Below, one piece after another: positions 4,843 through 60,762 of a DNA stretch of 64,000 nucleotides (position 1 is the stretch's first letter; each line of letters begins with the position of its first letter). The stretch lies in the NCBI GenBank assembly GCA_032358255.1, contig JAULBX010008995.1, positions 48,367 to 112,366 on the forward strand, written 5' to 3'. Position numbers and translations under genes: made by a program. Source of the stretch: Heterotrichella gracilis (taxonomy: Eukaryota; Sar; Xanthophyceae; Tribonematales; Xanthonemataceae). The notes under the pieces are model-generated. The model searched no databases. It had not been told where the DNA came from and worked only from the letters and a program-made list of their open reading frames with translations.

Positions 4843-5205
4843 ATGAAAACATTTTTAGATTATATGGCTGAAGAGAATATTACTCCAGTCGAATTACAGA
4901 TATTAAATGAGTCTCTTCAAACCGAATGGACTGAAGAACTTGAGGCTAAAGTTGATGCAGCATTAGATGAATTCTCTAAAACCTATAAAAATGAAGATGG
5001 AACTTACAATGTTCAAAGATTCAATGAAGAGATTACTAATGAAGGTATTTTAGGAAGTATCTTTGGTGGACTTGCAGGTTTTGCTCTTGGTAAAACTATC
5101 GGTAAAACTGTTGCAAATATCTTAGGAATCCAAAGTGGCGTAATGTACGACATGTTAACTTCAAGATTAGTTGGTGCCGCTCTTGGTGCTTCTCTTGGTA
5201 AATAA
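4843..5205 (+). CDS. Small head-type protein with capsid-targeting-like N-terminus and glycine-zipper tail
   Basis: The 120-residue protein begins MKTFLDYMAEE, close to the T4 capsid-targeting peptide of internal proteins, and has further candidate gp21-type cleavage sites (small or aliphatic residue, any residue, Glu) at ILNES and EITNEG. The acidic middle is followed from about residue 70 by a hydrophobic Gly-rich segment with repeated GxxxG spacing (GGLAGFALGKTIGKTV). If cleaved at ITNE, a membrane-active peptide of roughly 50 residues would be released. It could be a prohead core protein or an injected peptide. The role is inference; no homologue is recognised. Confidence 0.45.
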   Translation: MKTFLDYMAEENITPVELQILNESLQTEWTEELEAKVDAALDEFSKTYKNEDGTYNVQRFNEEITNEGILGSIFGGLAGFALGKTIGKTVANILGIQSGVMYDMLTSRLVGAALGASLGK

Positions 5206-5212
5206 TTTCTAA

Positions 5213-5869
5213 ATGAATTTCGTAACAATTGACTTTTCTTTAAATTCTCCAGGTATTTGTATCTTTTCAGATAACAAGTACAATTTTATTGGGTATTTAA
5301 AACCAAATTCTGGAACTAAAGCAGAACAAAAGATTCAAGAGGAATTAAATCTACTCGAAGATACACAGATCTCTCATCAACCAGACTGGACTAATAACGA
5401 AGCTTACTCAAAGAGCGAAATGATTAAGATCCAAAGACACACTCAAACCGCAAACGATATCATTAATATGATTATTGAAATTGCAGGCAATGAAACTCCT
5501 TTTGTGATTGCTTTTGAAGGTTCTTCTTATGGTTCTTCTGCTGGAACTAACAATATTATTGACATGGCTGCTGGTGCCGCAATCTTAAAGATGGAAATGA
5601 TGTCGAGGCTTGAAGTCTTAGACATGATGACAATTGCTCCTTCGACAATTAAGAAACATGCTGGAAAAGGTAACATGAAAAAGGACGAGCTGTGGGTTAA
5701 ATTCCTGGAAAATATTCTTAATGATTCTTCGTTGGAAAACTCGTCACTGCTTAGATTCTGTCAAAACGAAATCGGTTCGGTTAAAAAAGTCCCGAAACCT
5801 CTTGATGACTTAGTGGACGCTTACTTTTTAAATCATTTAGCCAGAAGTTTATTTTACCCAGAGGCTTAA
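5213..5869 (+). CDS. RuvC-like Holliday-junction resolvase/nuclease
   Basis: The 218-residue protein has an RNase H-like fold signature as in RuvC: an N-terminal strand with Asp (TIDFSLNSPGI, Asp at residue 7), a second acidic strand (AFEGSSYG, near residue 103), a Lys-rich TIKKHAGKGNMKKDE segment and a C-terminal DDLVDAYFL helix supplying acidic residues. In T4, branched DNA is resolved by gp49 (endonuclease VII); a RuvC-type enzyme would do the same job here before packaging. It lies just upstream of the gp32 promoter region. Assignment is from motif order, not alignment. Confidence 0.65.
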   Translation: MNFVTIDFSLNSPGICIFSDNKYNFIGYLKPNSGTKAEQKIQEELNLLEDTQISHQPDWTNNEAYSKSEMIKIQRHTQTANDIINMIIEIAGNETPFVIAFEGSSYGSSAGTNNIIDMAAGAAILKMEMMSRLEVLDMMTIAPSTIKKHAGKGNMKKDELWVKFLENILNDSSLENSSLLRFCQNEIGSVKKVPKPLDDLVDAYFLNHLARSLFYPEA

Positions 5870-5996
5870 AGACTTTAGTTATATTCACTATGTGAGATTT
5901 TGTTTCAAAAGTACTTAAAAATATTTTATAAACAAAAAAGAGAGTCTTCAGGTGTCACATCTCCCAAATAAAAAAGATATATATTATTATAGAAAG

Positions 5997-6025
5997 TGAA
6001 ACAAAATATTCATTCTCTATATAAC
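5997..6025 (+). promoter_or_regulatory. TGAAAC-N17-TATAAC promoter of gene 32
   Basis: TGAAAC at 5997-6002 and TATAAC at 6020-6025 with exactly 17 bases between, inside the 232-base gap upstream of the ssDNA-binding protein gene. It is one of seven sites with the same spacing in this window, all in front of replication, sigma or metabolism genes. Confidence 0.65.
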
Positions 6026-6101
6026 TATCATAAGTTAATTAAAGGGCCCTTAAAAACTTAGAACAATTAAAGTATTAACAAAAATTAAAGCAATTAAAGA
6101 C

Positions 6102-7037: not shown

Positions 7038-7057
7038 TATAATTTAGGTAAGATTAG

Positions 7058-7087: not shown

Positions 7088-7102
7088 CCTATATAATAAG
7101 AT

Positions 7103-10408: not shown

Positions 10409-10440
10409 ACATAATAACGTAATAAAAAAACATATTAAAA

Positions 10441-12375
10441 ATGGCACAAGTTAACAAAATCTCTTCATTTAAGAGTTTTACTGAGATCAAGAATCAGGAA
10501 ACTACAATGAAACTAAGAGAAGAAAACAATGCAAAAAGACAGGAAACTGTTGGTAAAATTGGAGCAATCCTTGATGAAATGGGTTTAACATCTTTATCTG
10601 AATTAGATGAGGATAAAAAACAAGCCCTAATCAGCAAAATGTTTGGAAACGTTTCAGAAGATGAAGCAGAAGATATCGAAGACGAAATCAATAAATTAGG
10701 AGAACCTAAAAAATTGGAAGATGAAAAATTAGAAGAAGGAAATGCCTTTATTTTTGCAGCATCAAAAGCTAGACAAGAAGGAAAATCTGAATTTGAATTT
10801 AATGGTAAAAAATATAAAGTAACCTTAAAGAAAGATACTGGTCTTAAAGAAGGTAATGCTTTTGGAGATGCTGTTAAAAAAGCAAAAGAAGATGGAGAAA
10901 CAGAATTTGAATTTGATGGTAAAACATACAAAGTTGAAGAATCTTCAGTTAATGAAGGTAAACATGGTATGGCTAAAAAATTACTTAAAGGAATTGTTGA
11001 TGGAAATTCATCAGAGGCTGAAGGTATCAAATTATCAAAAGAATTAGCTGATCATTATTTATATTGGATTAACACATCGCCTTACGGTAAGAAAAACGAA
11101 AACTTACCATTGTACATGTTAATTGACGCAAGTTTTAATTGGGGAATCGAAAGAGGTTTACCTAAAGAATTAAAAGCAGAATTAGATGCTTTAAAAGATT
11201 CAGTAAAAAAAAATGAATCATTTTTAAATGAAGCTCGTTCAATTGCTAAAATTCAAAACGAATGGTCAAAAGTAACTACTGAAATGGCTGATCTTGCTGC
11301 TAAATGGAAAGCTGCTGAAGGAGATGCTAAAGCAGAATTACTTGCTCAAATGAAAGAAAAAACTGCTGTAAAAAAAGGATTAGAATCTGAATTAGATGCT
11401 GCAGTTGCAGGAAAAGATAAAGATCTAGAATTAGTAGTTTCTGAAGCATTCTATAGATTACCTAAAGATGTTATTGGAAATGAATTATATTTAGCATCTA
11501 AAAATTTAACAAACTTATATAATAGTTCAGCTACTGGAAACGATATCGATACTGGTGTTGTTGATTCTATTGTTAAACAATTAAACACTGTTAAAAAATC
11601 TGCTAAGAAATTTAATAGTGCAGAAGAAGTTGCTGGAACTGTATATGAAGGCGCTGTTAAACAATTCGATGCTGATTTTAACGATATGGTTAAAAATATC
11701 AAATCAGGATATGGATGGATTGATCCAGAATATGTAGCAGATACTTGGGAAAATTCAAGTGACTCTATTGATTTTGAATTAGTTAAAGGAGAAATCTACA
11801 AAAGATTAATTGCAGCTAAATTGTTAGCGTATGCTGATGATGAAGATGAAGAATCTGCAGGACAATATATTAAATCATTAAAAGAATTAGGGATTAAAGA
11901 ATCTGTTGAAGTTAATGAAACTGAAGTTAACGAAGCAGAAATTAAATCTGACGATGAATTTAAAGAATATGCAATGTCAGTTTTGAAAAAAGCGTTTGGT
12001 GCTGATTTCGACGAAGCTAAAGGAGAAGAAGTTGCTAATGGAATTCTTAAAAAATGCGATGGAGATTACGGAGCATGTGTTGGAATGTTAACAAGTTCTC
12101 TTGGAGAATCAGTTGTTGTTGAAGGATTTGATGCTAAGTACTGGGAAGACTATCATAATGATGATTCTGGTAAACTAGAAAATCCTAATAACATACAAAT
12201 TCAACAAGAAGTAGAAGCATGCGCTGAAGAGTGGAATGATAATAATGAAAATGGCGAAGAGAACGAAATCAAACCAGCTACTGAAAAGAAAGTAATAAAA
12301 TTGGCAAAAGAATTTGTTAAAGCAAAAGGTTGGATCTCATCTGATGTTATTGAAGCAATGCTTGCTCAAGAATAA
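10441..12375 (+). CDS. Predicted internal-head polyprotein with multiple protease sites
   Basis: The 644-residue protein begins MAQVNKISSFKSFTEIKN, similar to the capsid-targeting peptides of neighbours. It contains many candidate prohead-protease sites of the form aliphatic-X-Glu before a small residue: SSVNEGK, SFLNEAR, LVVSEAF, TEVNEAE and SVVVEGF. Residues 99-127 and 137-165 are two copies of a module (EGNAF...FEFxGKxYKV); similar GKxY modules occur in injected proteins of other phages. The rest is acidic, helical and Ala/Lys-rich. No enzyme domain is recognised. It is probably cut in the prohead and packaged with DNA. It is the first gene after a late-type promoter. Confidence 0.55.
   Translation: MAQVNKISSFKSFTEIKNQETTMKLREENNAKRQETVGKIGAILDEMGLTSLSELDEDKKQALISKMFGNVSEDEAEDIEDEINKLGEPKKLEDEKLEEGNAFIFAASKARQEGKSEFEFNGKKYKVTLKKDTGLKEGNAFGDAVKKAKEDGETEFEFDGKTYKVEESSVNEGKHGMAKKLLKGIVDGNSSEAEGIKLSKELADHYLYWINTSPYGKKNENLPLYMLIDASFNWGIERGLPKELKAELDALKDSVKKNESFLNEARSIAKIQNEWSKVTTEMADLAAKWKAAEGDAKAELLAQMKEKTAVKKGLESELDAAVAGKDKDLELVVSEAFYRLPKDVIGNELYLASKNLTNLYNSSATGNDIDTGVVDSIVKQLNTVKKSAKKFNSAEEVAGTVYEGAVKQFDADFNDMVKNIKSGYGWIDPEYVADTWENSSDSIDFELVKGEIYKRLIAAKLLAYADDEDEESAGQYIKSLKELGIKESVEVNETEVNEAEIKSDDEFKEYAMSVLKKAFGADFDEAKGEEVANGILKKCDGDYGACVGMLTSSLGESVVVEGFDAKYWEDYHNDDSGKLENPNNIQIQQEVEACAEEWNDNNENGEENEIKPATEKKVIKLAKEFVKAKGWISSDVIEAMLAQE
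10735..10935 (+). repeat. Two copies of an 87-bp EGNAF...GKxYKV coding repeat
   Basis: Bases 10735-10821 and 10849-10935 encode two 29-residue modules with matching Glu-Gly-Asn-Ala-Phe starts, a Lys-rich helix and a Phe-Glu-Phe-X-Gly-Lys-X-Tyr-Lys-Val hairpin. DNA identity is partial, so this is an old duplication. Confidence 0.6.
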
Positions 12376-12442: not shown

Positions 12443-13732
12443 ATGAAAACAAGAATCCTTAATTTTAATCAATTCATAACTGAAAAGTACGAAGTTCAAT
12501 TAAATGAGCAGTTAATATTAGAAGGTGGAGCAGCTGGACATATGTCGCATCCATTCGATAATAATAACTTAACGTTTGCTGACTTTAAGAATATGATTAT
12601 TGGCGGACTTCAAGGAGAATTAAACTTTGAGGAGGAACCTACTGAAAAAACAGATGGTCAAAATGTTTTTGCAACTATTCAAAAGGGTGAAGTTAAATTT
12701 GCCAGAAATAAAACTGAATTGCAAAGCCCAATGAACCTTAAAGATTTTCAGAATAAATTTGAGGGTCATGCTAGTAAATTAGTGCAAGATACTTTCCAAT
12801 TTGCTGCTGCTGATTTAGCTAACTTACTTATAAAGTTACCCGCAAAAACACAAGAGGAAGTGTTCCAGAATGGTCTGAACTTCATGAACATGGAGTTGAT
12901 ATATTCTGCAAATCCTAATGTTATTCACTATGATGTTGATGTAATTCAATTCCATGGTGTTAAAAAGACCGATGGCGCTGGAAATATTATCGGAGACGAT
13001 AATAGTGCGGCTAAAAGTGTTGCAAGTATATTAAAAGACTTAAATGCTCATATCGGAAGTGTATTTACAATTATTCCTCCACAAGTTATTAAATTACAAA
13101 AAGATATAAACTTCGAAGAGAATCAAGCTAAATTTATTGGAAAAATCGAAGCACTTAGAAACAGATATAATCTAACAGATGCTGATTCAGTTGCAAGATA
13201 CCATGAAATGTGGTGGAGAGAGCAAATTGAATCTATTTTTGGTGATTTGCCTCAGAATATTAAAGAAGGTTTATTACTTAGATGGGCTTATGATGATAAG
13301 AAAACATTAAATATGCGTTCATTAGACAAAGAATTGACTAAAGCACAATCAGATGCTATTAAGAAATTCGACAAAGAAGACGCTAAAAAGAAATTTAAAG
13401 AAAACATTAGACCATTTGAAGACCTTTTCTTAGAATTGGGAAGTGTTATCTTAAAGAATGCAAGTAATTTTGTTGCTGCTTCTCCAGACAAAGAAATGCA
13501 AAGATTGCATAATGAAATCAGAACAGAAGCTGACAAAATTAAATTAAACGGAGACCTTACCCAAATAGAGAAAGTTGCAAAAGAACTTGACAGATTAGAA
13601 AGAATTGGAGGAATCCAATCTATTATACCAACTGAGGGTATTGTATTTTCATACAAAGGACACATGTACAAATTAACAGGAACATTTGCTGCGATTAATC
13701 AGCTAATGGGAATTATAAAATACGGAAGATAA
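12443..13732 (+). CDS. Capsid-targeted ligase-like nucleotidyltransferase
   Basis: Start chosen at 12443; an upstream in-frame ATG at 12404 lies in the terminator hairpin. The 429-residue product begins MKTRILNFNQFITEKYEVQLNE, with candidate protease sites after FITE and QLNE. The remainder resembles the covalent nucleotidyltransferase (DNA/RNA ligase) superfamily: a KTDG motif (Lys69) as motif I, a MELIY segment like motif III, and near the C-terminus EGIVF followed by YKLTG, like motifs IV and V. It may seal nucleic acid ends using ATP or GTP after being packaged in the head. The ligase call is by motif order, so the substrate is unknown. It overlaps the next gene by 1 base. Confidence 0.5.
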   Translation: MKTRILNFNQFITEKYEVQLNEQLILEGGAAGHMSHPFDNNNLTFADFKNMIIGGLQGELNFEEEPTEKTDGQNVFATIQKGEVKFARNKTELQSPMNLKDFQNKFEGHASKLVQDTFQFAAADLANLLIKLPAKTQEEVFQNGLNFMNMELIYSANPNVIHYDVDVIQFHGVKKTDGAGNIIGDDNSAAKSVASILKDLNAHIGSVFTIIPPQVIKLQKDINFEENQAKFIGKIEALRNRYNLTDADSVARYHEMWWREQIESIFGDLPQNIKEGLLLRWAYDDKKTLNMRSLDKELTKAQSDAIKKFDKEDAKKKFKENIRPFEDLFLELGSVILKNASNFVAASPDKEMQRLHNEIRTEADKIKLNGDLTQIEKVAKELDRLERIGGIQSIIPTEGIVFSYKGHMYKLTGTFAAINQLMGIIKYGR

Positions 13733-15606
13733 TGGCATTACAAAAATTAAGAGAGCACTTTAACGAAACGAATAGAGAATCTTTTATTGATATGTTAAAG
13801 AATAGGGTGTTAGTAACTGAAAAAGTTGCAGCGCCTACTTTTCTTGTTAGGAGAAAATCAGACGGATTTGAATATTACAAATCTTCTAATTCTGACAAAT
13901 TAAATCTAGTTGACAGAACCGTCATTTCATTATATGAAATTGCTATCAATTACATGCAAAGTTTGCCAAACTCTATTAAAGCTGAAATGCCAGACGATTG
14001 GAGATTTGGATTTGATTATTTACCAGAACTTGGAGCATCTAAAATATCTTACACAAATACACCAACAAATAATTTAATACTTACGCACATCCAACAGATT
14101 GGAGAAAATGGTAAGGTTAAAAAAACAATCAATGATCCTGAAATATTAAAGAAATGGTCGAAAGTATTAAATGTACAAGCACCTAATATAGTATTTGACG
14201 GATATTTATCTCAATTACAAAAAGACGAATTATTAGATTTATTATCAATGAGCGATAGAGAATTTTCTGACTCATTTGATTATTTAATAGAAACTAAAGA
14301 TAAATCTAGCTTCACAAGCAAAATATTTAAACTATTTAATCCAAGTATTAGTTCAACATCCCTAAACCCGGATCTTGAAAGCGAGATCGATGGACTTATT
14401 GTTAATTTTATTGACGGTAAATTTATGAACTCATTCAAGCTTGAAGATTTTAATAGAACAATCCCAGCAGAAGACCAAAGTTCAAGTCACATGTACCAAA
14501 TTGCAGTTACTGACGTTTTAGAATATTTGGCGCAATACAATTTAGACGATATTAAATTAGAAGAGGAAAGTGCAGATTACAGATACCTTGAAACATTATC
14601 AGTTATCTTTAATTCTTATATTGATAAAAACTCTTCAAAATATATTGGTGTTAATTTTGAAAGCGCAGAATTTTCATCTGCTGAATCTTTTAAATTAAAT
14701 ACTAAATACATTAAAAATGAAAAGACATTAAAATTCGTAGCAAACGATGTTTTAGCAGAGCTTTTTAAAATGATTTTAAGTTCTTTCAGAAAGAAAAGAA
14801 CAAAAACAACCGATCTTATTGATGAAGATACTATGAAACGTATGAATGAAATCATCGATAAAATCAGCGAAAAAATATTTGTTGAACATACTGACGAGAA
14901 TTCAATCTATGACTATCAGAACTTTATGTTACACAATAAAATTAAGGCTTCTGTTGATTTAAATGAGGCTCTTAAAGTAAATCACACTGAACAGGGAAAA
15001 CAACCAGTAAATATGTTTGTTGGTAGATTTCAACCATTTACATTAGGGCATGCTAAAGTATTAGAAGCACTTCATAAAGAGAATGGGTTTCCAGTAGTTG
15101 TATTTTTAGTTAAATCAAAAACCAAAAAGAAGGGAGATGAATTTAGCAGACCATACGATGAAAACACTCAAATTGAAATGTTCAATAATGTTAAAAAACA
15201 ATACACATTCTTAAAAGAAATATTTGTTGTTCCAACTGGAGGAATAGATACTATGTTTAACGAAATAAGACCAAAATACGAACCAGTACTTTGGGGAACA
15301 GGAAGCGATAGAATGGCAAGTTATGGCTATCAAGTTAATAATGATTCTTATAGAGATCAATTAAATGTAAGAGCTGATTTTGGACTTTTTGAAATTCCAA
15401 GAACGGATGATGATATTTCGGCTACCGCTGTTAGAAACGCATTATTAGCAAATGATGAAAAACAATTCAATAATTTAACTCCAAAGGCAATTCATGGAAT
15501 GTACGCTGAATTAAAATCTAAAATTGAAGATTCAATGGGAGTTGTTGCTGAAAGTGTTTCGACAGAAATCATGACATTTGAACAGTTTATTAATAAAGAT
15601 ATATAA
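13732..15606 (+). CDS. Bifunctional protein: N-terminal ligase-like region fused to NMN-adenylyltransferase-like domain
   Basis: In this 624-residue protein the C-terminal domain (about residues 425-600) has the class of motifs seen in NadM/NadR adenylyltransferases: FVGRFQPFTLGH (residues 429-440) and DISATAVRNAL near residue 563. It would make NAD from NMN and ATP, or a related nucleotidyl transfer. The first Thr of the usual HxGH is a variant (TLGH). The N-terminal half contains KSDG near residue 42 and EIDGLIV...SFKLED near residue 220, reminiscent of ligase motifs, but less convincing. The protein ends MTFEQFINKDI, a capsid-targeting-like peptide at the C-terminus. It lies in the packaged-protein operon. 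Confidence 0.6.
   Translation: MALQKLREHFNETNRESFIDMLKNRVLVTEKVAAPTFLVRRKSDGFEYYKSSNSDKLNLVDRTVISLYEIAINYMQSLPNSIKAEMPDDWRFGFDYLPELGASKISYTNTPTNNLILTHIQQIGENGKVKKTINDPEILKKWSKVLNVQAPNIVFDGYLSQLQKDELLDLLSMSDREFSDSFDYLIETKDKSSFTSKIFKLFNPSISSTSLNPDLESEIDGLIVNFIDGKFMNSFKLEDFNRTIPAEDQSSSHMYQIAVTDVLEYLAQYNLDDIKLEEESADYRYLETLSVIFNSYIDKNSSKYIGVNFESAEFSSAESFKLNTKYIKNEKTLKFVANDVLAELFKMILSSFRKKRTKTTDLIDEDTMKRMNEIIDKISEKIFVEHTDENSIYDYQNFMLHNKIKASVDLNEALKVNHTEQGKQPVNMFVGRFQPFTLGHAKVLEALHKENGFPVVVFLVKSKTKKKGDEFSRPYDENTQIEMFNNVKKQYTFLKEIFVVPTGGIDTMFNEIRPKYEPVLWGTGSDRMASYGYQVNNDSYRDQLNVRADFGLFEIPRTDDDISATAVRNALLANDEKQFNNLTPKAIHGMYAELKSKIEDSMGVVAESVSTEIMTFEQFINKDI
15598..15606 (+). promoter_or_regulatory. GATATATAA late-promoter-like motif
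   Basis: It coincides with the Asp-Ile-stop of the preceding gene and ends 24 bases before the ATG at 15630. Confidence 0.55.
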
Positions 15607-15629: not shown

Positions 15630-17933
15630 ATGAATTTTAATGAATTCTTAAATGAATCTAGCTTAAAACCAATGGGATTAAGTAAAGATGAAACTAAAAA
15701 AGTAGCAGAAACTTATGCTAAAGCCATTTCAAAATTAGATGGCGGAAAATGTACCGTAAATATGAGAACATTAGAAGAAGATTCTTTTGATCTAGATTTT
15801 AATGGTGAAGAATTTGATGGTGGTTCATATTCAATTGATTCTGATGGTAATGTTTATAATAATGCTATGGGAGTTGGTATGAAAACACCACCAATCTACG
15901 GTAAATGGAATGATTCAGTAGATGCTATTATTAAGAACATTAAAAAAATAAGCGAATCAGTAGTTACTGAAGCTGCTAAATTTAAAAACACTGAAAATTT
16001 TGAAGATTTCTTAGAGGAAATTGACGGTATGCCAGAATCAGCAATTAAAAAAATCATGGGTAAAGATTATATCGATACTCCAGGAGGTTATGCTGATGAA
16101 GCAGAAGATTACGATAATGACATTATTGAATATATGATTTCTAATATGGGTCGTAAAGAATTTGAAAAACTACAAGATTGGTGGGAATCAAACGTTGCAG
16201 AATCTGTAGTTACTGAAGCTAAAGCATTACCTTTAGATAAATTAGTAGACATGGTTGGAGATAAACCAACTTGTTATAACTTAGCTGACTTTGTTTATAC
16301 AAACTATGACAAAGTAACTGGTCTTAGAAAATCAATGAGAAATGATGAGATGGATTTTCCTATGGAAATCATCGATCTAGTAGATCACTATGGATTCGAC
16401 ATTGATGATTTTACTGACAAATACGGAATGGCTGCAGAATCAATAGTTACTGAAAGAAACATCACAATCAAAAGACAATATACTGAAAATCATCCAGCTG
16501 TTGTAGTTGGTAAAGCTGCTAAAATTAGAAATAAAGTTTTAGAAGCGATTAAAGATGGCAAGATTTCTCAAGAAGAGTTTGATAACTTGTTAAAAGAAAT
16601 GACAGCAGATTCTAAAAGATGGTTAAGAAGAAATTCTCGTCACTTTAATGTATCTGAAGATGGAATTAGTTTATCTAAGTCTGGAAAATCAATCCTTAAA
16701 AATGTTATGGTTTCTGAAGCTACTGAAAAGGCTCCAAAGATTTGGGTTCCTGGTGGATTTGACAAAGCAATTTCAAAATATCCAAATAATAAAATTACTA
16801 GAAAAATTGTATTAGATGCAGCAGTTAAATGGGAAGTAGATCCAGAGGACGCTATCTCTTATGTTGAATATGGATGGGCTATAGATTTAGATGAAAATAA
16901 AAACACAAAAGATATGAAAACAAAATTTATTTACGAATCTTTCGCTGAATTCGTTGAAAACAAATTAAACGAAGGTACGTTAAACGAGGCTTTTGCATCA
17001 GCAAAACTTGCAAGTTTATTAATGGGTGCGTATGCAATGCCAAAAGATCTTCCACAAGCCTTCTACAATATGTCAAAATTAGCTCTTGATAAAATTCAAG
17101 ATATTGATATTATTGAATTGACTCCAGAACAAGCAAAGAAAGAGAAAAGAGAAAGTGCTGTTTATTTATACTTTACAACTAATGAAAAAGAAAATCCATA
17201 TGCTGGTAAAAATTCATGGAATGCAACTAATGTTCCAGCAAACACATTATTAGCAATTACCGATGGTTCTAATGAATGGATGAATGCTGAATGGAGCAAA
17301 CATAGTAAACAAGCTACCGGTAGAACATTAGTAAAAACTAAAAGAGATGATTCTGCTGGATTAAATAAATCAAGCGCTAGCGATCAATATGGTACTGGTA
17401 TTTCAAGTTTGAAACAAGTAGTTGATTTAGCAGATAGAGCATATTGTTTAGACTTAACGATTCTTAGAGCAAGATATTCTACAACTGCGTTAAAAGCAGA
17501 AAGAGAAGGTGCAAGAAAAGGAGCAACTGCAATCATGGATCCTAGAGCATTTAGAGATGAAAACAAAGCAAGATATAACGCGATCTTAGCACAAAAAGCT
17601 TCTGAATTACCAATGGATAAAATAGTTTTAGATGCTATTGAAGAATTATCAAATCAAATTAAAGACGCCTTAGTTAATGCTGAAAAAGGTAAATACGGAG
17701 AACTTATTATGGGTCTAGATCCTAAAGGACGCGAAGTTAAATTAAGCGACGCTTCGAACTTAATGAGAGGAATCTTAGATGAGTACCAAAGATATGTCGG
17801 AGATGTCGCAGCTTCTGAAAAAGAAGTAGCAGCAGGATATGGAACTTCATATTATGATAGAAGTATTAAAGAACGTTCTAAAAACATTATGGACCGTGTT
17901 AAGAAAATCGAAAACAAAAATTACGCTTGGTAA
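15630..17933 (+). CDS. Predicted internal-head polyprotein with repeated ESVVTE sites
   Basis: The 767-residue protein begins MNFNEFLNESS, a capsid-targeting-like peptide with a cleavage site after FLNE. Three near-identical linkers, SESVVTEAA, AESVVTEAK and AESIVTERN (near residues 110, 192 and 272), separate small acidic domains, followed by MVSEATE and KLNEGTLNEAF. A second targeting-like peptide beginning at Met429 (MKTKFIYESFAEFVENKLNE) lies in mid-protein, as if two packaged proteins had been fused. The C-terminal 300 residues form a larger helical domain without recognised motif. The gene has a late-type promoter 24 bases upstream. Cleavage is inferred, not shown. Confidence 0.55.
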   Translation: MNFNEFLNESSLKPMGLSKDETKKVAETYAKAISKLDGGKCTVNMRTLEEDSFDLDFNGEEFDGGSYSIDSDGNVYNNAMGVGMKTPPIYGKWNDSVDAIIKNIKKISESVVTEAAKFKNTENFEDFLEEIDGMPESAIKKIMGKDYIDTPGGYADEAEDYDNDIIEYMISNMGRKEFEKLQDWWESNVAESVVTEAKALPLDKLVDMVGDKPTCYNLADFVYTNYDKVTGLRKSMRNDEMDFPMEIIDLVDHYGFDIDDFTDKYGMAAESIVTERNITIKRQYTENHPAVVVGKAAKIRNKVLEAIKDGKISQEEFDNLLKEMTADSKRWLRRNSRHFNVSEDGISLSKSGKSILKNVMVSEATEKAPKIWVPGGFDKAISKYPNNKITRKIVLDAAVKWEVDPEDAISYVEYGWAIDLDENKNTKDMKTKFIYESFAEFVENKLNEGTLNEAFASAKLASLLMGAYAMPKDLPQAFYNMSKLALDKIQDIDIIELTPEQAKKEKRESAVYLYFTTNEKENPYAGKNSWNATNVPANTLLAITDGSNEWMNAEWSKHSKQATGRTLVKTKRDDSAGLNKSSASDQYGTGISSLKQVVDLADRAYCLDLTILRARYSTTALKAEREGARKGATAIMDPRAFRDENKARYNAILAQKASELPMDKIVLDAIEELSNQIKDALVNAEKGKYGELIMGLDPKGREVKLSDASNLMRGILDEYQRYVGDVAASEKEVAAGYGTSYYDRSIKERSKNIMDRVKKIENKNYAW

Positions 17934-17950: not shown

Positions 17951-18499
17951 ATGAAACATATACAATTATACGAGCAATTCGTAAATGAAAAAGCGTATCA
18001 AATGACCGGAATTTACGGTGCTAAAGGTATTGCAGGAAAAGTATTATTCGCATTCAAAAAAGAAATCGAAAAAATCCAATATAGTGGAGATGCTGAATCA
18101 ACATTAGCAGAACTTAACGATGTTTGGTCAAAATGGGCCGATAAAGAAGGTGCTAAAATTGTTGAAGAACTTGTTTTAAAACAAGTAAAAGACAAAGAAG
18201 CTATTGTTTATGTTCTTGCAACATTAGGAGGATATTTATGGGAAGCTGAAACAGTTAATAGATTAAATTCACCAGGAAACGATGAATTGTTTGTTACTAT
18301 TCAAGGTGATTTTGTAATTAACGTTGGTTTTGCCGATGATGTTGATTCTAATAAATTTGGTAGAAAACTTGATGGTATGCAAAATTCTGCAATCGCAAGC
18401 AGTAGAGAAACTGCAGTTATTGGAGCATACGATGGAGCAGTAGGCGAAAACAATATTGAAATCAGAACAGGTTTCTATTTATCAATAGACGCGAAATAA
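17951..18499 (+). CDS. Small packaged-type protein with capsid-targeting peptide
   Basis: The ATG at 17951 gives MKHIQLYEQFVNEKAYQ, the family consensus; an upstream in-frame ATG at 17927 overlaps the previous gene and is rejected. The 182-residue product after the predicted FVNE cut is a mixed helical/strand domain with Gly-rich loops and no recognised motif. It follows the 15630 polyprotein by 17 bases and precedes the next gene by 1 base, in the internal-protein operon. Confidence 0.5.
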   Translation: MKHIQLYEQFVNEKAYQMTGIYGAKGIAGKVLFAFKKEIEKIQYSGDAESTLAELNDVWSKWADKEGAKIVEELVLKQVKDKEAIVYVLATLGGYLWEAETVNRLNSPGNDELFVTIQGDFVINVGFADDVDSNKFGRKLDGMQNSAIASSRETAVIGAYDGAVGENNIEIRTGFYLSIDAK

Positions 18500-46228: not shown

Positions 46229-47833
46229 ATGGCAGGATTTGTACAAAGAAATGGTCCATTGAGTACTGGAAAAAGACCTTTTGTCTTAAGTGATACACTA
46301 AAGAAGTTATCTTCTTTTGGTATGTACTATGATGATTTGGTACTTAGACAATCTCAGGCAATTGGTCCAGTAGAAGATGCAATTGGTTACGGCCAAATGA
46401 ATCCATTAGGACTGGATAACGATGATATGTATGGCGCATTTGCAGCTCTTTCAATGGCTGATACTACAATGCGTAAAAATATTCCATTCTTTGACCAAAA
46501 TTATAAAGGTAAAAGAGATGAACTTAGATCGTTTTCACAACATGATGAGATCGAAGACATTTTAGATATTTTATGCGACGAATCAATTGTATTCGATAAT
46601 AAAAATTTTATCGCGAATCCTGAAATCATCGGAATGGAAGTTTCAGATGAGGTTCAAAAATATCTTAATAAAGCATATAGAGATATTTACCAGTATTTTG
46701 GTTTTAACATGGACCAATCAGCATGGTATTTCTTTAGAAAATGGTTAATCGATGGTTACCTTTCATTTGAGATTATTTATAATCCTGAGATGACCGAAGT
46801 TATTGGTTTCAAGGAAGTTGATCCAATCACATTAGTACCAGGATATAACCATGAAGATGGTAAAAAAGTATGGATTCAATTTAAAGATGATCCATTAAAA
46901 GAAAGAAAATTATATGATTCTCAAATCGTATACATTTCATATAGTTCGATTACTACCGCGTCAAGGGTTTCTTACCTTGAAAGATTAATCCGTTCATTTA
47001 ACTTAATGAGAATTATGGAACATACCAGAGTTATTTGGGCTGTTACAAATTCATCTTATAGAATGAAGTTTATTATCCCAGTTGGTGGTAAATCTAAAAC
47101 AAGAGCAAAACAATCACTTTCTCAATTGATGAGTAATTATAAAGAGGTAGTAGATTTTGATTGGGACAGTGCTTCTCTTACAACGAACGGAAAACCAATG
47201 TTACAATTCAACAAAGAATATTGGTTACCTAGTAAGGACGGAGAACAACCAGAGATTGAAACTCTTGGTGGAGATGGTCCTGAATTAAGTGACACAGAAT
47301 CATTAAAATATTTCTCAGATAAACTTAAAGCAGTTTCAAAAATCCCATACTCTAGATTTATGTATGAAGATGGCGGTGGAGATTTTGCAATGGAAGCAGA
47401 TGGAATGATTAGAGACGAAATCAAATTCGCTAAATTCATTAATCGTTTACGTAGTTCATTCCAAGAGATATTGATTAAACCACTGTGGTTACAAATGTGT
47501 CTTAAATTTCCTGAATTTAAAGAAGATGCTGGTTTTAGAACCCAAATCGCATTAAGATTTAATGAAGAAAATATGTTTGCTGAATTAAAGCAAATGGAAA
47601 TCATGAGCAAAAGACTTGATTTTATTGGAACAATGAAAGACTCATTAGTTAAAACAGATCCTTTAACAATGGAAGAATCACCTTACTTTGATATGGAATT
47701 CTTAGTTGATAGATACTTAAAATTATCTCCAGATGATAAAGCAGCAAACGAAGCTTATAAAGCAAGAAATGCGGCTAAAGAAGCTGAAGAACCAGAACCT
47801 GAAGATCCAATGGGAATGATGGGAGGAATGTAA
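46229..47833 (+). CDS. 20: Portal vertex protein gp20
   Basis: The 534-residue protein contains the T4 portal order: an acidic DEIEDILDILCDE helix (near residue 107), VDPITLVPG, LERLIRSFNLMRIMEHTRVIWA and a C-terminal Met-rich tail. Portal proteins form the dodecameric DNA channel. Position just upstream of the core protein and prohead protease is the T4 order 20-67-21-23. A late-type motif lies 23 bases upstream. Confidence 0.85.
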   Translation: MAGFVQRNGPLSTGKRPFVLSDTLKKLSSFGMYYDDLVLRQSQAIGPVEDAIGYGQMNPLGLDNDDMYGAFAALSMADTTMRKNIPFFDQNYKGKRDELRSFSQHDEIEDILDILCDESIVFDNKNFIANPEIIGMEVSDEVQKYLNKAYRDIYQYFGFNMDQSAWYFFRKWLIDGYLSFEIIYNPEMTEVIGFKEVDPITLVPGYNHEDGKKVWIQFKDDPLKERKLYDSQIVYISYSSITTASRVSYLERLIRSFNLMRIMEHTRVIWAVTNSSYRMKFIIPVGGKSKTRAKQSLSQLMSNYKEVVDFDWDSASLTTNGKPMLQFNKEYWLPSKDGEQPEIETLGGDGPELSDTESLKYFSDKLKAVSKIPYSRFMYEDGGGDFAMEADGMIRDEIKFAKFINRLRSSFQEILIKPLWLQMCLKFPEFKEDAGFRTQIALRFNEENMFAELKQMEIMSKRLDFIGTMKDSLVKTDPLTMEESPYFDMEFLVDRYLKLSPDDKAANEAYKARNAAKEAEEPEPEDPMGMMGGM

Positions 47834-47853: not shown

Positions 47854-48195
47854 ATGAAAATAATTAAAACATTTGAACAATTCACAACCTCACTACAAGA
47901 AGGTGCAATTGAGGCTGGTGAAGATTCCAAAGTAATAGTTGATGATGTTACTCTAGATTCAGGAAATGAAATTAAATCAACCGAAATCTTAGGTGCTATC
48001 ATGTCATGTAAAAGTGAAAAAGAATTTAAAGAATATTTCTATAAAGCATATGGAAACACCGCTTTTACTGAAGAGGATATATTTACTCTAGTTAAATTTT
48101 TTAACGATTATAGAGAAGAGAAGGCTGAAAAAGAAAAAGAAGCTGAAAAAGAAGCTGAAGGCGGAGAAGAAGAGGATCCATTAGCTGGCGTATAA
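47854..48195 (+). CDS. Prohead core protein (gp67/68-like) with capsid-targeting peptide
   Basis: The 113-residue protein begins MKIIKTFEQFTTSLQEGA, with a predicted cut after SLQE, and has a Glu/Lys/Ala-rich C-terminus typical of scaffold cores. Its location between portal and prohead protease is exactly that of T4 genes 67/68. This is the best local support that the recurring peptide marks prohead-resident proteins. Confidence 0.6.
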   Translation: MKIIKTFEQFTTSLQEGAIEAGEDSKVIVDDVTLDSGNEIKSTEILGAIMSCKSEKEFKEYFYKAYGNTAFTEEDIFTLVKFFNDYREEKAEKEKEAEKEAEGGEEEDPLAGV

Positions 48196-48264: not shown

Positions 48265-50199
48265 ATGACTAAAAACTTACTGATCCTAGAAAGATCATCT
48301 ACTGAGTTAGAGTTTAAACAAGAAGGTGGAACCTATGTTCTAGAAGGTATCTTTGGAGAAATCGATAAGAAAAATCGTAATAACCGAATCTATACTGAAT
48401 CTGAGTATTTACCGCAGATTGAGGCTCTACAGGCTAAGATTAAATCTTCAAAACTTTTAGGTGAATTAGATCACCCTCAGACTTTTGATGTTTCTCTTAA
48501 AAATGTTTCACACATTATTGAAGAGCTTACATACGACACAGCTACAAAACAGGTTAAAGGACGTATCAGACTATTAGATACTGATGCAGGAAGACAGGCA
48601 AAAGCTCTTGTTGATGCTGGAGTTCCTTTACAAATTTCAAGTAGAGCAGCAGGAGCTGTTGAATCTAATGGAACTGTAAAAATCAAACAATTATTTACTT
48701 ATGATTTAGTTGCAGATCCTGGATTTGAGAACGCTGAATTAAAAAGAGTTAATGAATCTTACGGATTTGTTAATGAAGGAAATGACTTATTTATTTACGA
48801 GATAAATAATACAGATGAAAAACAAACAATCGAAAATATAAACGAAACAAAAATGGCAGAGTCTAAATTTATTACGGTTGAGGATTTTAATAAATACTCT
48901 AAATATCTTTCTGAAGAGATCAAATCTATTAAAGAAGGTATGAATTCTTTAACAGAATCAGAGTCAACTAGTTCTCAATTAGAAACATTAAAAGAGTATA
49001 CTGATTATTTAGCTAAGAAATTAGACGAATCAATCAAATATTCAGAGCATATCGCTGAAAAAGCAGACCAAGGTATTTCTTACACAGAAAGTCTTGCAGA
49101 GAAATTGGATCAAGGTATTCAATATTCTGAGCATATCGCAGAAAGCGTTGATGCTATTAAAAACTACACAAACTATTTAGCAGAATCTTATAATGAAGGT
49201 TCAACTTCTTACGAGAACTTAATTAAATATACTGAATATTTAAGAGAGAACTTAGAGAAAGTTACTGAATATGCTGAATATGTTGCAGAAACAGTTAACT
49301 CTAACTTATTATTAGAAGACGAAGCAGGTATTCCAGCTGAAGCAATCAAAGATGAAACTAAAGATGTTTCTCCAGAAGTTGTAGATGCAGATGGTAAAAC
49401 ATACGATGCTGAAGAAGTTGAAAATAAAGAGAAAGAATTAGAACTTGCTGGCGAAGGCGATGCAGCTGGTGAAGAAATCAAAGAAGCAAAAGACGTAACT
49501 GAAGAAGGATTACCAGCTGACGATATTAAAGATGAAACTAAAGACGTTTCTCCTGAAGTAGTTGACGCAGACGGTAAAACTTACGATGCAGAAGAAGTTG
49601 AAAATAAAGAAAAGGATTTAGAATTAGCTGGTTCTGGAGACGCTGCTGGTAAAGATGTTGATGCTATGGAAGCTTACAAAAATTCAATCGCATCTAAATT
49701 AGAAGCTATTGTTGAAAAAGTTAACGCTAAGAAAAACGAAGGACCATCATTCATTAAATTTATCTCTGAAGAGAAAGTAAACGAATTCAATGCTTTAACA
49801 TCTGAAGAAAAATCTAAAGTTATTAATGCAGTTGAAGGAAAAGGTTACTTAACTGAAGGACAAATCTTAGGATTATGGGATAATTCATTAATGGGAGCTG
49901 TTCCTGCAAATGAAACAACTCTTGCAGTTATTTCAATGATGCCAAGCGAATATCACGAAACTTGGACTAAATTGTCTGAATCTAAGAAAAACCAAATCAT
50001 TGCACAATCAAAAATGCACAGATTAGAAACTTCTTACCAAGTTGCAAACTTTTGGCAAACAAGAGACCTTAGAGAAACTGCTCCAGTAATGGAAAAAATC
50101 GCTATGGTAAATGAAGCTGCTACTGTTGAAGAAGTTAAAACTATTGGTTATGATACAACTGATATAGCTGCACAAATCGCTGCTAAATTCAGAAAATAA
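48265..50199 (+). CDS. 21: Prohead protease gp21 fused to scaffold gp22-like domain
   Basis: The 644-residue protein has residues 1-175 as a gp21-type serine protease: GELDHP (His70) and LQISSRAAG (Ser125/126), then LVADPGF. From about residue 197 a long acidic coiled coil follows, with repeats such as YSEHIAEKADQGI and a 60-residue tandem duplication (residues about 360-460), as in scaffold gp22. An in-frame ATG at 48853 (MAESKFIT) with an A-rich leader could give scaffold alone. In T4 21 and 22 are separate genes. Self-processing at NE/AE sites is likely. Protease motifs are seen; the fusion role is inference. Confidence 0.75.
   Translation: MTKNLLILERSSTELEFKQEGGTYVLEGIFGEIDKKNRNNRIYTESEYLPQIEALQAKIKSSKLLGELDHPQTFDVSLKNVSHIIEELTYDTATKQVKGRIRLLDTDAGRQAKALVDAGVPLQISSRAAGAVESNGTVKIKQLFTYDLVADPGFENAELKRVNESYGFVNEGNDLFIYEINNTDEKQTIENINETKMAESKFITVEDFNKYSKYLSEEIKSIKEGMNSLTESESTSSQLETLKEYTDYLAKKLDESIKYSEHIAEKADQGISYTESLAEKLDQGIQYSEHIAESVDAIKNYTNYLAESYNEGSTSYENLIKYTEYLRENLEKVTEYAEYVAETVNSNLLLEDEAGIPAEAIKDETKDVSPEVVDADGKTYDAEEVENKEKELELAGEGDAAGEEIKEAKDVTEEGLPADDIKDETKDVSPEVVDADGKTYDAEEVENKEKDLELAGSGDAAGKDVDAMEAYKNSIASKLEAIVEKVNAKKNEGPSFIKFISEEKVNEFNALTSEEKSKVINAVEGKGYLTEGQILGLWDNSLMGAVPANETTLAVISMMPSEYHETWTKLSESKKNQIIAQSKMHRLETSYQVANFWQTRDLRETAPVMEKIAMVNEAATVEEVKTIGYDTTDIAAQIAAKFRK
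48853..50199 (+). CDS. 22: Possible internal start: scaffold-only product (gp22-like)
   Basis: Met197 of the protease-scaffold gene is preceded by the A-rich leader AACGAAACAAAA, as good as most starts in the window. Translation from here would produce a 448-residue protein lacking the protease, an arrangement like lambda C/Nu3, where scaffold must be more abundant than protease. It remains untested. Confidence 0.35.
   Translation: MAESKFITVEDFNKYSKYLSEEIKSIKEGMNSLTESESTSSQLETLKEYTDYLAKKLDESIKYSEHIAEKADQGISYTESLAEKLDQGIQYSEHIAESVDAIKNYTNYLAESYNEGSTSYENLIKYTEYLRENLEKVTEYAEYVAETVNSNLLLEDEAGIPAEAIKDETKDVSPEVVDADGKTYDAEEVENKEKELELAGEGDAAGEEIKEAKDVTEEGLPADDIKDETKDVSPEVVDADGKTYDAEEVENKEKDLELAGSGDAAGKDVDAMEAYKNSIASKLEAIVEKVNAKKNEGPSFIKFISEEKVNEFNALTSEEKSKVINAVEGKGYLTEGQILGLWDNSLMGAVPANETTLAVISMMPSEYHETWTKLSESKKNQIIAQSKMHRLETSYQVANFWQTRDLRETAPVMEKIAMVNEAATVEEVKTIGYDTTDIAAQIAAKFRK
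49344..49650 (+). repeat. Tandem 180-bp period repeat in scaffold region
   Basis: Bases 49344-49470 and 49524-49650 encode nearly identical stretches containing DVSPEVVDADGKTYDAEEV. The period of 180 bases (60 residues) and codon-level differences point to an in-frame duplication that has started to diverge. Confidence 0.8.
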
Positions 50200-51934: not shown

Positions 51935-53155
51935 ATGAAAACTAACAAAACATTTGAATCATGGTATACTATGATTATGGAAGGTGAATTAGCAACTGCA
52001 ACATCAACTACTACCGAAACACCAACTATTTCTAATGATGTAGATACTATCATAACTTCTTTAGAAACTCTTGCGAAAGAATTAACTGAAGAATTAGAAG
52101 GAGAAGATTTTACCGAAGTTAACGAAGCAGATGCCGAAGGACCAAGTACCGTTATGCAATGGATTTGGTGGATGCCAAAGGCCAGAAAAGCACAAGCAAA
52201 AGTTAACAAAATTAAGTTAAACATAACTGATATGGAAGCTGCTGCCGCTGATGCGCCAGACGCTCAACAAAAGGCTAAAATTGCAGCAAAAGCAAAACAA
52301 GCAAAAGAACAAGCATCTGAGCTTCAAAAAATGGTTGATGATAAATTCAAATCAAAAGGAGACCTTGTAGGTAGAGCAATTCAAAATGAAAAAATTGCTG
52401 GCCAAATAGCATCAATTAAAAGAGCTTCTGGATTAGAAGATGATCCTGAAAAATTATCTACTTATAAAGAAAAAATGGCTGAACTTCAACAAAAATATAA
52501 AGAGGATCAAGATGCAATTAAAGAACTTGAACCTTCAGATGAAGATAAAAAGGCTGAAAAAGCAAAAAGAGATAAAGAAGAAGCTGAAGCAAAAGCAGCT
52601 CAGGCTAAATTAGATGCCGACGCTCAAGCAGCTAAAGATAAAGAAGCTGGTAAAGATCCAAAGGAACCAAAGGAACCAAAGGAACCAACAGATCCAAAGG
52701 AACCAACAGATCCAAAGGAACCAAAGGAACCAGCAGATCCAAAAGAACCAAAGGAACCAACAGATCCAAAAGAACCAACAGATCCAAAGATAAAAGAATT
52801 ACAAGATGACATCACAGCTAAAGAATCCGAATTAGCCGATGCTGAAAAATCTCCTGATAAAAATAAAGAAGGCATTAACATACTTAAAGGTGCAATTGCT
52901 GGAATGAAGAAAAAATTAGAAGCATTAAAGCAAAAATCAGCTACACAAGAATCTTTAGTTACCAGAGCAAAAGCCGCTGGATTAAATGAATTAGCTACTG
53001 AAATTGAATCTAAATTTGATTGGCAAGTTTCTGAAGGAACTGTGTTACATTCAAAATATAACGAATTGATTAAAAAAGCAGAATATTCAAATACCTTAAA
53101 TGAATCAAAATACGAAAATTTAAGTGTTAAAGAAAGATTCTCTAGATTAATGTAA
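51935..53155 (+). CDS. Packaged-type protein with Pro-Lys-Glu-Pro repeats
   Basis: The 406-residue protein begins MKTNKTFESWYTMIMEGEL, a capsid-targeting-like peptide. A helical Ala/Lys/Glu-rich region (about 60-230) is followed by a repeat of PKEP/TDP units (about 241-286), another coiled coil, and a C-terminal LNESKYENLSVKERFSRLM. Candidate cut sites are FTEVNEA, ATQES and TLNES. It could be a head core or decoration-associated protein next to the capsid gene. No homologue is recognised. Confidence 0.5.
   Translation: MKTNKTFESWYTMIMEGELATATSTTTETPTISNDVDTIITSLETLAKELTEELEGEDFTEVNEADAEGPSTVMQWIWWMPKARKAQAKVNKIKLNITDMEAAAADAPDAQQKAKIAAKAKQAKEQASELQKMVDDKFKSKGDLVGRAIQNEKIAGQIASIKRASGLEDDPEKLSTYKEKMAELQQKYKEDQDAIKELEPSDEDKKAEKAKRDKEEAEAKAAQAKLDADAQAAKDKEAGKDPKEPKEPKEPTDPKEPTDPKEPKEPADPKEPKEPTDPKEPTDPKIKELQDDITAKESELADAEKSPDKNKEGINILKGAIAGMKKKLEALKQKSATQESLVTRAKAAGLNELATEIESKFDWQVSEGTVLHSKYNELIKKAEYSNTLNESKYENLSVKERFSRLM
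52656..52794 (+). repeat. Short tandem coding repeat (PKEP/TDP)
   Basis: A run of 9- and 12-base units built on CCAAAGGAA and CAACAGATC encodes Pro-Lys-Glu-Pro and Thr-Asp-Pro. Near-identity of units suggests recent slippage expansion, so copy number may vary among isolates. Confidence 0.8.
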
Positions 53156-59610: not shown

Positions 59611-59645
59611 TATTGATACATATACTATCTAACAAAACACACATT

Positions 59646-60293
59646 ATGTCAGAAAATAAAAGTATAAAGGACCAGGCTGAAGATATTAGAAGGGATCTTG
59701 ATGAATTAATCGGTAACGATACTTCACGTGAGATTTCAGATGTTATTGAAACAGACCCAAAACTTCCAGCGAAAAGACCAGAAACATATATGTCTTTTAG
59801 TGAACTTAAAGAAAGTTCAACTAGAAAAGCAAAGAAAACAATTTCAGCCTTAATGAAATTTTATCTTGATGCTGACATTATTGAAAAGGACGAATATATC
59901 CAGGCTAAAAAGAAGATGGACGAAATGACAATGAGTTCATTAGTTTATCAATTACAGGCCGGAGAAAGGGCGCTTACAACACTGTTAGAAGCGATTGAAG
60001 ATGGAGACGTTGCACCAAGAATGTTTGAAGTTCTTGCAACTCTACAAAAATCAATGTTAGATATTATTAAATCTCAAACAATGTATCTAATGGCAACTGA
60101 AGAAAGTACTAAAAGAATCGCTAGAGATATTGAAATCTATCGCAAAAAAGACGATATTAGAGAAATCGAATCTTCAGGCGGAGATTCATCTTCCGGAAAC
60201 ATTCAAAGAGGTTCAAAGGACTTGATGAGAATGATTAGAGCCGGCATAGATGATAGTGAAAGCGAAATTGAAGACGCAGAAATAACAGAATAA
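59646..60293 (+). CDS. 16: Terminase small subunit gp16
   Basis: The start is placed at ATG 59646 (MSENKSIK) rather than the in-frame 59613, which sits in a poor context just after the previous gene. The 215-residue helical protein has a central coiled-coil oligomerisation core (about 90-165) and an acidic tail, the layout of gp16. It recognises DNA for packaging and stimulates gp17. It is separated from gp17 by one packaged-type gene. Confidence 0.65.
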   Translation: MSENKSIKDQAEDIRRDLDELIGNDTSREISDVIETDPKLPAKRPETYMSFSELKESSTRKAKKTISALMKFYLDADIIEKDEYIQAKKKMDEMTMSSLVYQLQAGERALTTLLEAIEDGDVAPRMFEVLATLQKSMLDIIKSQTMYLMATEESTKRIARDIEIYRKKDDIREIESSGGDSSSGNIQRGSKDLMRMIRAGIDDSESEIEDAEITE

Positions 60294-60297
60294 TATA

Positions 60298-60762
60298 ATG
60301 AAACACATTAAGTTATATGAAGAATTTATATTTGAAATAGGGGATTCGTCTTCTAAAAAATACAAATATAAAATTAATGGAAAATTAAATGATATGTCTG
60401 AATTCAATAAAAGACTTTATGCTACATTTAAAACCGAATCAAAACTAGAATACACATTAACCGTTATAAATATAAACTCTTTTTTAGATGTTGATTTTAC
60501 AGCAGATGGAGAATACGAGGAAACTAATAAAGGAGAAATGTTTAAAATTATGGCAACAATTGTCGAAGTTGTTGAAAATATTATTATCAACAATAAAGAT
60601 ATTAGAGGAATACGATATGAACCAAAATCAAAAGGTAAAGATTCCGGAGAAAGTAGAGATAGATTATATCGAATTTTCTTAGAAAAATCTATTAAAAGAC
60701 TTGGAAAATCTATTAACTTTATACAACAAGGTGGAACGGTTTTTGGAATAATTACAGAATAA
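60298..60762 (+). CDS. Packaged-type protein inserted between terminase genes
   Basis: The 154-residue protein begins MKHIKLYEEFIFEIGD, the consensus targeting peptide with a predicted cut after FIFE. The body has a beta-rich first half and a basic C-terminal helix region (SRDRLYRIFLEKSIKRLGK). It sits 4 bases after gp16 and 1 base before gp17, interrupting the usual 16-17 pair, consistent with these small genes being inserted cassettes. Confidence 0.5.
   Translation: MKHIKLYEEFIFEIGDSSSKKYKYKINGKLNDMSEFNKRLYATFKTESKLEYTLTVININSFLDVDFTADGEYEETNKGEMFKIMATIVEVVENIIINNKDIRGIRYEPKSKGKDSGESRDRLYRIFLEKSIKRLGKSINFIQQGGTVFGIITE

Follow-up and report, generated by a model that had tools for sequence, protein, structure and literature searches.

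Many proteins encoded in the 64-kb window analyzed here (bases 48367-112366, the last 64 kb of C92, a 112,366-bp contig in the 68.5-Mb, 903-contig Heterotrichella gracilis assembly) begin with variants of one short peptide, hereafter called the tag. An earlier note on this DNA had pointed out this shared N-terminus, and our results confirm the observation. We consider it probable, at roughly 0.8, that the tag is a capsid-targeting sequence of the type carried by the internal proteins of phage T4, used here in a greatly expanded system by which a range of proteins, including anti-defence ones, is loaded into the phage head in advance. The note had proposed a leader of this T4 type, and the predictions of that proposal that can be tested on sequence held, apart from exceptions described below. 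An anti-defence role for some of the cargo is likely and, together with a polyprotein architecture, goes beyond what the note saw.

Results

On its gene content the contig is that of a T4-like phage, since it encodes a portal protein, a prohead protease of family S77, a T4-type major capsid protein and a large terminase; replication- and tail-looking genes, as judged by eye, surround these head genes. Within the phage collection the contig comes closest to LR756500, an uncultured phage of 462 kb, to which capsid open reading frame (ORF) 50642-51829 is 52% identical (ORFs are named by window coordinates unless stated otherwise). Remoter relatives are uncultured phages of 634-735 kb, Prevotella Lak phages, Sphingomonas phage PAU and Tenacibaculum phages. 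Isolates matched by tblastn with the capsid and protease ORFs all stayed under 60% identity, and from the relatives the host may belong to the Bacteroidetes.

We defined the tag core as [FYLW]xx[FYW][ILVM]xE, that is, an aromatic-x-x-aromatic prefix followed by [ILVM]-x-E. Each of the twelve starts listed in the earlier note is a real ORF with the N-terminus given there, and nine of them (4843, 12443, 15630, 17951, 21041, 31548, 33791, 34150 and 60298) carry the full core; leaders in the window are 9-16 residues long and end in [ILVM]-x-E (Table 1). Two more starts, 47854 and 51935, stood in part, with the aromatic prefix present and the hydrophobic-x-E unit displaced, and 10441 proved a weak case (SSFKSFTE). 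Internal and C-terminal copies of the tag are also real, at residue 111 of ORF 18501-19163 and at the C-terminus of ORF 13732-15606, and the rest of the contig adds two tagged genes, at C92 12050 and 25415. The T4 leader that had served as the model, MKTYQEFIAE, is a leader of the same kind and is seen on T4 IPII and IPIII.

The tagged set is larger than chance would give. We used a fixed T4-like core instead of an unguided expectation-maximization motif search, which on N-termini was little separated from its controls (log-likelihood 223.8 vs 186-214 for six shuffles and 179 for 96 internal stretches); shuffles, interior windows and a scrambled codon pattern served as the three controls. Within the first 24 residues the core occurs in 10 of the 117 ORFs of the contig, against 0.99 expected from interior 24-mers (11/1295) and 0.70 from shuffles, and when starts inside the ORF are allowed the count is 13/117 against 0.85. 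By eye, eleven of the 13 are clear and two chance-like (C92 13081, and an internal methionine of the capsid ORF at window position 50693). LR756500 has the core in 28/634 ORFs against 3.65 expected, about 23 of them clear and five chance-like by eye. In T4 itself five of 249 ORFs match against 1.9 expected; the annotated ipII and ipIII are among these matches, and ipI, whose site is displaced, escapes the pattern. Matches against expectation were 6 vs 1.5 in KVP40, 3 vs 0.95 in Syn9, 3 vs 1.7 in pT24, 3 vs 0.7 in MA9V-1 (133 kb searched) and 5 vs 0.5 in MaF61 (160 kb searched), several of the T4, MaF61, KVP40 and MA9V-1 matches being chance-like. PAU (1 vs 1.25) and Mel-JY01 (1 vs 1.2) showed no excess and T4, Syn9, pT24 and KVP40 a small one, so that a large set of tagged proteins is not a feature shared by all T4-like phages. 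A check for late promoters of the TATAAATA type within 80 nucleotides was uninformative (1/14 tagged genes vs 4/96 other genes).

The tag is strongly phage-specific. The 13-codon search pattern M-K-x-I-K-x-[FY]-E-E-F-hydrophobic-x-E was found in at least 120 IMG/VR stretches, and the same codons in scrambled order in none. In 84,980 bacterial and archaeal species the pattern gave two matches, one at the start of a 146-residue ORF on a 4.6-kb contig binned as nanoarchaeal, the other 12 residues into a 53-residue ORF on a Tannerella contig. Since the 81 distinct tags use different synonymous codons for K, I, L, F and E, it is as a peptide that the tag is conserved. LR756500 has a leader consensus of its own, MKYI..YEEFL.E (e.g. 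MKYILEYEEFLLE), as against MKHIKLFEEFVNE here.

The end of the leader resembles the L/I-x-E site after which T4 gp21 cleaves (PMC9026906), and cleavage at this point is predicted. For the site statistics, a tag was recognized from no more than about its first ten residues, and 124 instances selected for the glutamate were removed. In the 276 that are left, glutamate stands at +3 in 172 (62%) and at each of the other seven positions from +1 to +8 in at most 16%; position +1 is I, L, V or M in 70%, and +4 is most commonly S, A or K. An S/A-x-E ending of the phiKZ/SPN3US type is not characteristic of these tags, the residue before x-E being mainly I, V or L (189/276) and S in 19. In 79 loci picked by their protease gene regardless of tags, core tags are rarer, occurring in 22 of 792 distinct ORFs, against 3.3 after shuffling.

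The gp21-type protease that the earlier note placed at 48265 is recognized by Pfam (Peptidase_S77, 2.2e-11) and by PHROG (head maturation protease, 6.1e-40), and its scaffold-like C-terminal part contains repeated Y-x-x-Y-[LV]-x-E motifs. The tagged gene assigned to the T4 prohead-core position, 47854, does lie between portal and protease. An S77 match was present in 22 of the 23 records of the protease search (20 over cut-off), with MaF61 as the exception. In 47854 (TFEQFTTSLQE) and in the scaffold-like 51935 (TFESWYTMIME) the hydrophobic-x-E unit is displaced by three residues, and across the core families its position shifts (TFEEFTSSLQE, TFKNYSNLTE, TFEQFVAE; FENWYTSILEE, FESWYTMIME), a variability easier to reconcile with a protease site than with a rigid helix. 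In T4 IPI the prefix likewise stands well ahead of TITE.

Behind the tag, the proteins are diverse. Tags occur on 381 of the 2527 ORFs of the window, the rest of the contig, a second contig of the same assembly (C825), LR756500 and 120 IMG/VR stretches. Once stripped of the tag, these 381 bodies are grouped by BLAST at E 1e-4 in 133 clusters, of which 85 are singletons, under a relaxed tag pattern that admits some chance matches and with near-identical contigs present. Among 121 tagged representatives (127 candidates minus seven chance-like ones plus one window protein), enzyme-like bodies include ATP-grasp, GNAT and 2H phosphoesterase. A single paralogous family with diverged bodies would explain the common N-terminus and the adjacency of tagged genes (143 adjacent pairs within the IMG/VR loci vs 75 expected, maximum 92 in 1000 shuffles; six pairs in LR756500 vs 1.4, not above the highest shuffle value of 7). 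Set against so many clusters and singletons, and against several unrelated Pfam families, such common descent is hardly credible.

The same body can also carry different leaders. The 429-residue family (12443) has the core in 101 of the 120 best homologs (of 1130), with leaders as diverse as MKTRILNFNQFITE, MKIYNTFEQFLTE and MKKLQSYKDFVLE; in an alignment of 24 sequences F11, E14 and EKTDG are invariant and EG.VF is conserved. On these motifs, of the KxDG and EGxVF type, this protein may be a covalent nucleotidyltransferase or ligase. Its structural model has a predicted local distance difference test (pLDDT) score of 65, too poor to use, with no PDB match at E 0.001, and sequence searches gave no PHROG match and no PDB match better than 0.04. 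The ATP-grasp family (31548) has the core in 47 of 72 homologs, again with different leaders on one body; one homolog, P0139, has two tandem N-terminal tags. LR756500 (L012, L015, L018) encodes tagged leucine-rich-repeat-like proteins in several copies, one recognized by Pfam LRR_14 (8.1e-25) and the others by eye. Two sets of matches were discarded: an SbcD-like one (L131:3939-4931) is a false positive, the SbcD profile matching from position 59 so that the tag-like stretch is internal, and the PADLOC matches among the tagged representatives were all weak (best 3.5e-4).

That tagged proteins are mainly the structural core (scaffold) of the prohead, consumed in maturation and not delivered as cargo, would account for the prefix on the gp67-position protein and on 51935, which their homologs mostly keep; in T4, gp22, gp67 and gp68 are cleaved into fragments (PMC5694885, PMC9026906). 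This explanation is at odds with the high proportion of singletons, with the frequent adjacency of tagged genes, and with bodies that include ATP-grasp, GNAT, 2H phosphoesterase and Tad3. Moreover, the glutamate is mostly displaced in the core families and mostly not in other tags. We find a purely structural role quite unlikely.

Two cargo families are related, on profile matches, to anti-defence proteins: Tad3 (anti-Thoeris), and an Acb1-like 2H phosphoesterase directed, in its known relatives, against the cyclic-oligonucleotide-based antiphage signalling system (CBASS). Among 49 tagged records, Tad3 is found in six (over cut-off) and an Acb1 match in 15 (13 over cut-off). A canonical tag starts all six Tad3 ORFs and 14 of the 15 Acb1-like ORFs, the 15th being displaced, in records picked by a tag pattern that 12 of the 15 Acb1-like and three of the six Tad3 leaders themselves match. 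In both families the tag precedes the known domain, which is also found without a tag. Tagged Tad3 scores 75.2 bits with Pfam Tad3 (cut-off 27) and matches PDB 9b7d at E=1.1e-37. Its N-terminal ~40 residues, the tag and a linker ending in a conserved SINE-G, are extra, because profile position 46 is already matched by residue 6 of the solved Tad3 chain; the body is untagged in Vibrio phage phi50-12, the one record compared for it.

The Acb1-like proteins score 28.6 and 31.8 bits with Pfam Acb1 (cut-off 27) and have both HxT motifs in 12/12 aligned sequences, with no PDB sequence match at E 0.01. In the structural model pLDDT falls below 50 at residues 1-6 and 8-18, solved Acb1 aligns from model residue 20, and 7t27 ranks first by E-value in Foldseek (5.4e-6); the model supports a 2H phosphoesterase fold and no more. 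Among five other phage records the 2H body is tagged in LR745206 and LR756502, untagged in LR756508 and Maribacter phage Molly_5, and ambiguous in LR756504. Literature searches, which covered few subscription journals and preprints, found nothing joining anti-CBASS with capsid targeting, nothing on Tad3 with Thoeris in phage, and nothing relevant on capsid-targeting sequences in metagenomes.

Tags also stand inside proteins and at their ends. Judging from gene arrangement, the internal tag of ORF 18501-19163 marks the joint of a fusion: locus L098 encodes the two halves apart from each other, in ORFs 605-952 and 10127-10516, and the second-half ORF starts there, from an internal methionine, with a tag of its own, MKRIKLFEQFVNE. 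As a parallel to the C-terminal copy, T4 Alt is cleaved at its C-terminus (PMC9026906). ORF 15630 looks like a polyprotein whose cassettes would be freed by the prohead protease. In 120 listed homologs (of 763), relatives that are not independent of one another, ES[VI]VTE sites number 215 against 0.5 after shuffling; 102 of the 120 have at least one, and the next residue is mostly A, R, G or T. Of the 113 segments between consecutive sites, 78 measure 62-104 residues and 29 measure 147-160, about double, and homologs therefore seem to differ by whole cassettes.

Table 1. Features of the window (positions in the 64-kb stretch). Counts of distinct homologous ORFs were taken among the fetched IMG/VR loci.
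Feature	Position	Strand	Remarks
Tag MKTFLDYMAE, ORF 4843-5205 (120 aa)	4843..4872	+	core kept in 2/4 distinct homologous ORFs
Weak tag-like N-terminus MAQVNKISSFKSFTE, ORF 10441-12375 (644 aa)	10441..10485	+	core tag in 6/17 distinct homologous ORFs
Tag MKTRILNFNQFITE, ORF 12443-13732 (429 aa)	12443..12484	+	homolog set and alignment
Tag-like C-terminal tail VSTE-IMTFEQFINKDI, cytidylyltransferase ORF 13732-15606	15556..15603	+	
Tag MNFNEFLNE, ORF 15630-17933 (767 aa), predicted polyprotein	15630..15656	+	core match
ESVVTE site 1, ORF 15630	15954..15971	+	predicted cut
ESVVTE site 2, ORF 15630	16200..16217	+	predicted cut
ESIVTE site 3, ORF 15630	16437..16454	+	predicted cut
Tag MKHIQLYEQFVNE, ORF 17951-18499 (182 aa)	17951..17989	+	5/6 distinct homologous ORFs tagged
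Internal tag MKKFKTFEQFLNE, ORF 18501-19163, residue 111	18831..18869	+	joint of DUF3008 half and second half
Tag MKHIKLYEEFVNE, ORF 21041-21364 (107 aa)	21041..21079	+	no homolog among fetched IMG/VR loci
Tag MIPIKLFEEFVYE, ATP-grasp-like ORF 31548-32642 (364 aa)	31548..31586	+	homolog set
Tag MKYTQLFEEFINE, ORF 33791-34126 (111 aa)	33791..33829	+	3/4 distinct homologous ORFs tagged
Tag MKHIKLFESFVHE, ORF 34150-34704 (184 aa)	34150..34188	+	2/2 distinct homologous ORFs tagged
Portal protein	46229..47833	+	PHROG 213, 4.3e-69
Displaced tag MKIIKTFEQFTTSLQE, gp67-position core gene 47854-48195	47854..47901	+	aromatic prefix in 69/78 homologous ORFs (4 rows look like another protein, 5 more without prefix pattern), E spacing variable
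Prohead protease (Peptidase_S77), long scaffold-like C-terminal part	48265..50199	+	PHROG and Pfam matches
Displaced tag MKTNKTFESWYTMIME, scaffold-like ORF 51935-53155	51935..51982	+	aromatic prefix in 26/26 distinct homologous ORFs, canonical core in 2/26
Tag MKHIKLYEEFIFE, ORF 60298-60762 (154 aa), adjoins large terminase (60764)	60298..60336	+	2/3 distinct homologous ORFs tagged

Some other features of the window and assembly were recorded. The major capsid gene, as assembled here, is split in two reading frames (50370-50639 and 50642-51829), and the 62 homologous ORFs of relatives are all longer than 440 residues and in one frame. ORF 19581-21014, untagged amid the block of tagged genes, belongs to PHROG 850 (DUF7788/DUF2828), a large RNA-binding-protein family. 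By eye, DNA-polymerase-like sequence occurs in two separated ORFs (27361-28758 and 35579-36775). Further phage-like contigs of the same assembly are C825, with three leader-bearing genes in a row, and C669, with another S77 protease.

Discussion

We propose that, as the prohead assembles, tagged proteins attach to the scaffold core through their N-terminal leader. The gp21-type (S77) protease would then cut after the glutamate of [ILVM]-x-E, freeing mature cargo in the head, and fusion or polyprotein cargo would be cut there as well, at internal tags or at ESVVTE-type sites. Ejected together with the DNA, the counter-defence relatives (Tad3-type and Acb1-like) could act before any phage gene is expressed.

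Several observations weigh against this proposal, and it should be read with them in mind. Virion data for these phages were not found. In the 79 protease-picked loci glutamate stands at +3 in 17 of 118 prefix cases (14%) and at +6 in 36 (31%), because the prefix cases there come mostly from the two core-protein families. The aromatic prefix occurs without a site in 10 of the 72 ATP-grasp homolog rows, and a CxxC zinc-ribbon-like family (C825 2376-3188; L024, L032) keeps an LFEEF-type prefix with SANQV in place of hydrophobic-x-E; in these proteins cleavage is thus either not predicted or lies elsewhere. As for function, the tagged proteins of the window match no known inhibitor in Pfam and PHROG scans, and the 121 tagged representatives include 29 Pfam families in all, most of the cargo being without known function. 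Part of the 20/21 figure for canonically tagged Tad3 and Acb1-like ORFs is selection, given that the 49 records were themselves picked by tag. The Acb1-like fold is equally near other 2H phosphoesterases, VIA Z for Usb1, LigT and others being as high or higher (13.2 vs 11.0). Finally, the 2H body is untagged in LR756508 and Molly_5 (at cut-off), both of which have an S77 match, and preloading would therefore be optional.

Prefixes without a site also suit a different idea, namely that the peptide docks proteins to some other phage compartment or complex (the membrane, the replication site or the tail) and that the glutamate belongs to an amphipathic helix and is not a cleavage site. However, the glutamate occupies P1 of hydrophobic-x-E with little conserved beyond it, and the spacing from the prefix to that unit varies, as in T4 IPI. 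An S77 protease, moreover, co-occurs in 11/11 tagged IMG/VR contigs of at least 160 kb, one of which looks like the same phage as LR756500. We regard docking elsewhere as very unlikely.

We give even odds to a wider proposition: that the tag is the genome-readable address of a preloaded counter-defence arsenal. Large T4-like phages would carry dozens of protease-released head proteins, some of them polyproteins, that act at the very outset of infection against CBASS, Thoeris and other defences. Most of the ~130 clusters would then be anti-defence or host-takeover proteins not yet described, and the leader alone would suffice to find them. If such an address marks the proteins delivered with the DNA, a simple leader scan would yield hundreds of candidates for new proteins of these kinds, and the leader would predict which proteins act before phage gene expression. 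The idea of the T4 internal proteins, whose known targets are GmrSD enzymes (PMC12373910), would be extended to second-messenger defences, and natural, varied leaders would be on offer for packing foreign proteins into phage heads.

The closest known counterparts are T4 Ip1, Ip2 and Ip3, packaged and injected proteins that have only the N-terminal leader in common and act as inhibitors of different GmrSD enzymes (PMC12373910); the T4 capsid-targeting sequence can also package foreign proteins (PMC5694885). Like T4 IPI-IPIII, the proteins described here combine a short leader (MKTYQEFIAE in IPII and IPIII, MKTFKEF...TITE in IPI) with non-homologous bodies, an L/I-x-E end and a gp21-type protease. 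Whereas T4 has three internal proteins, LR756500 has 23 clear cases and the contig studied here, though partial, has 11; at least 10 have been reported in T4-related phages (PMC12373910). Also unlike T4, the cargo here includes relatives of anti-Thoeris and anti-CBASS proteins and not GmrSD inhibitors, as well as fusions and a predicted polyprotein with internal sites. The ejection and inner-body proteins of phiKZ and SPN3US are similar in that several head proteins carry removable propeptides and in that proteins are injected with the DNA, as is predicted here, but the endings (S/A-x-E in phiKZ; A-x-E in SPN3US) and the lengths, several propeptides exceeding 100 residues, differ from our short leaders with [ILVM]-x-E (PMC5694885, PMC9026906).

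With respect to individual cargo, the Acb1-like relatives resemble T4 Acb1 (57B) in their two HxT motifs, Pfam Acb1 match and 2H fold, and differ from it in being tagged, 57B having no canonical tag; their cyclic-nucleotide specificity is putative. T4 acb1 adjoins ipI (see also PMC9117128), and 57B (L332 9953-10411) starts with MMEFKDFSTG, which resembles the prefix MKTFKEF of its neighbour IPI, either as a relic leader or by chance. The Tad3-type cargo is like the Tad3 inhibitor of type I Thoeris in its Pfam and 9b7d matches and unlike it in the extra tag and linker, and inhibition is predicted. P1 DarA and Hdf are likewise head-associated anti-restriction proteins (PMC12810830), a likeness drawn from their description, and a review of jumbo phages (PMC13282480) reports that phiKZ injects Tad1, which it presents as the sole anti-defence protein described so far in these phages.

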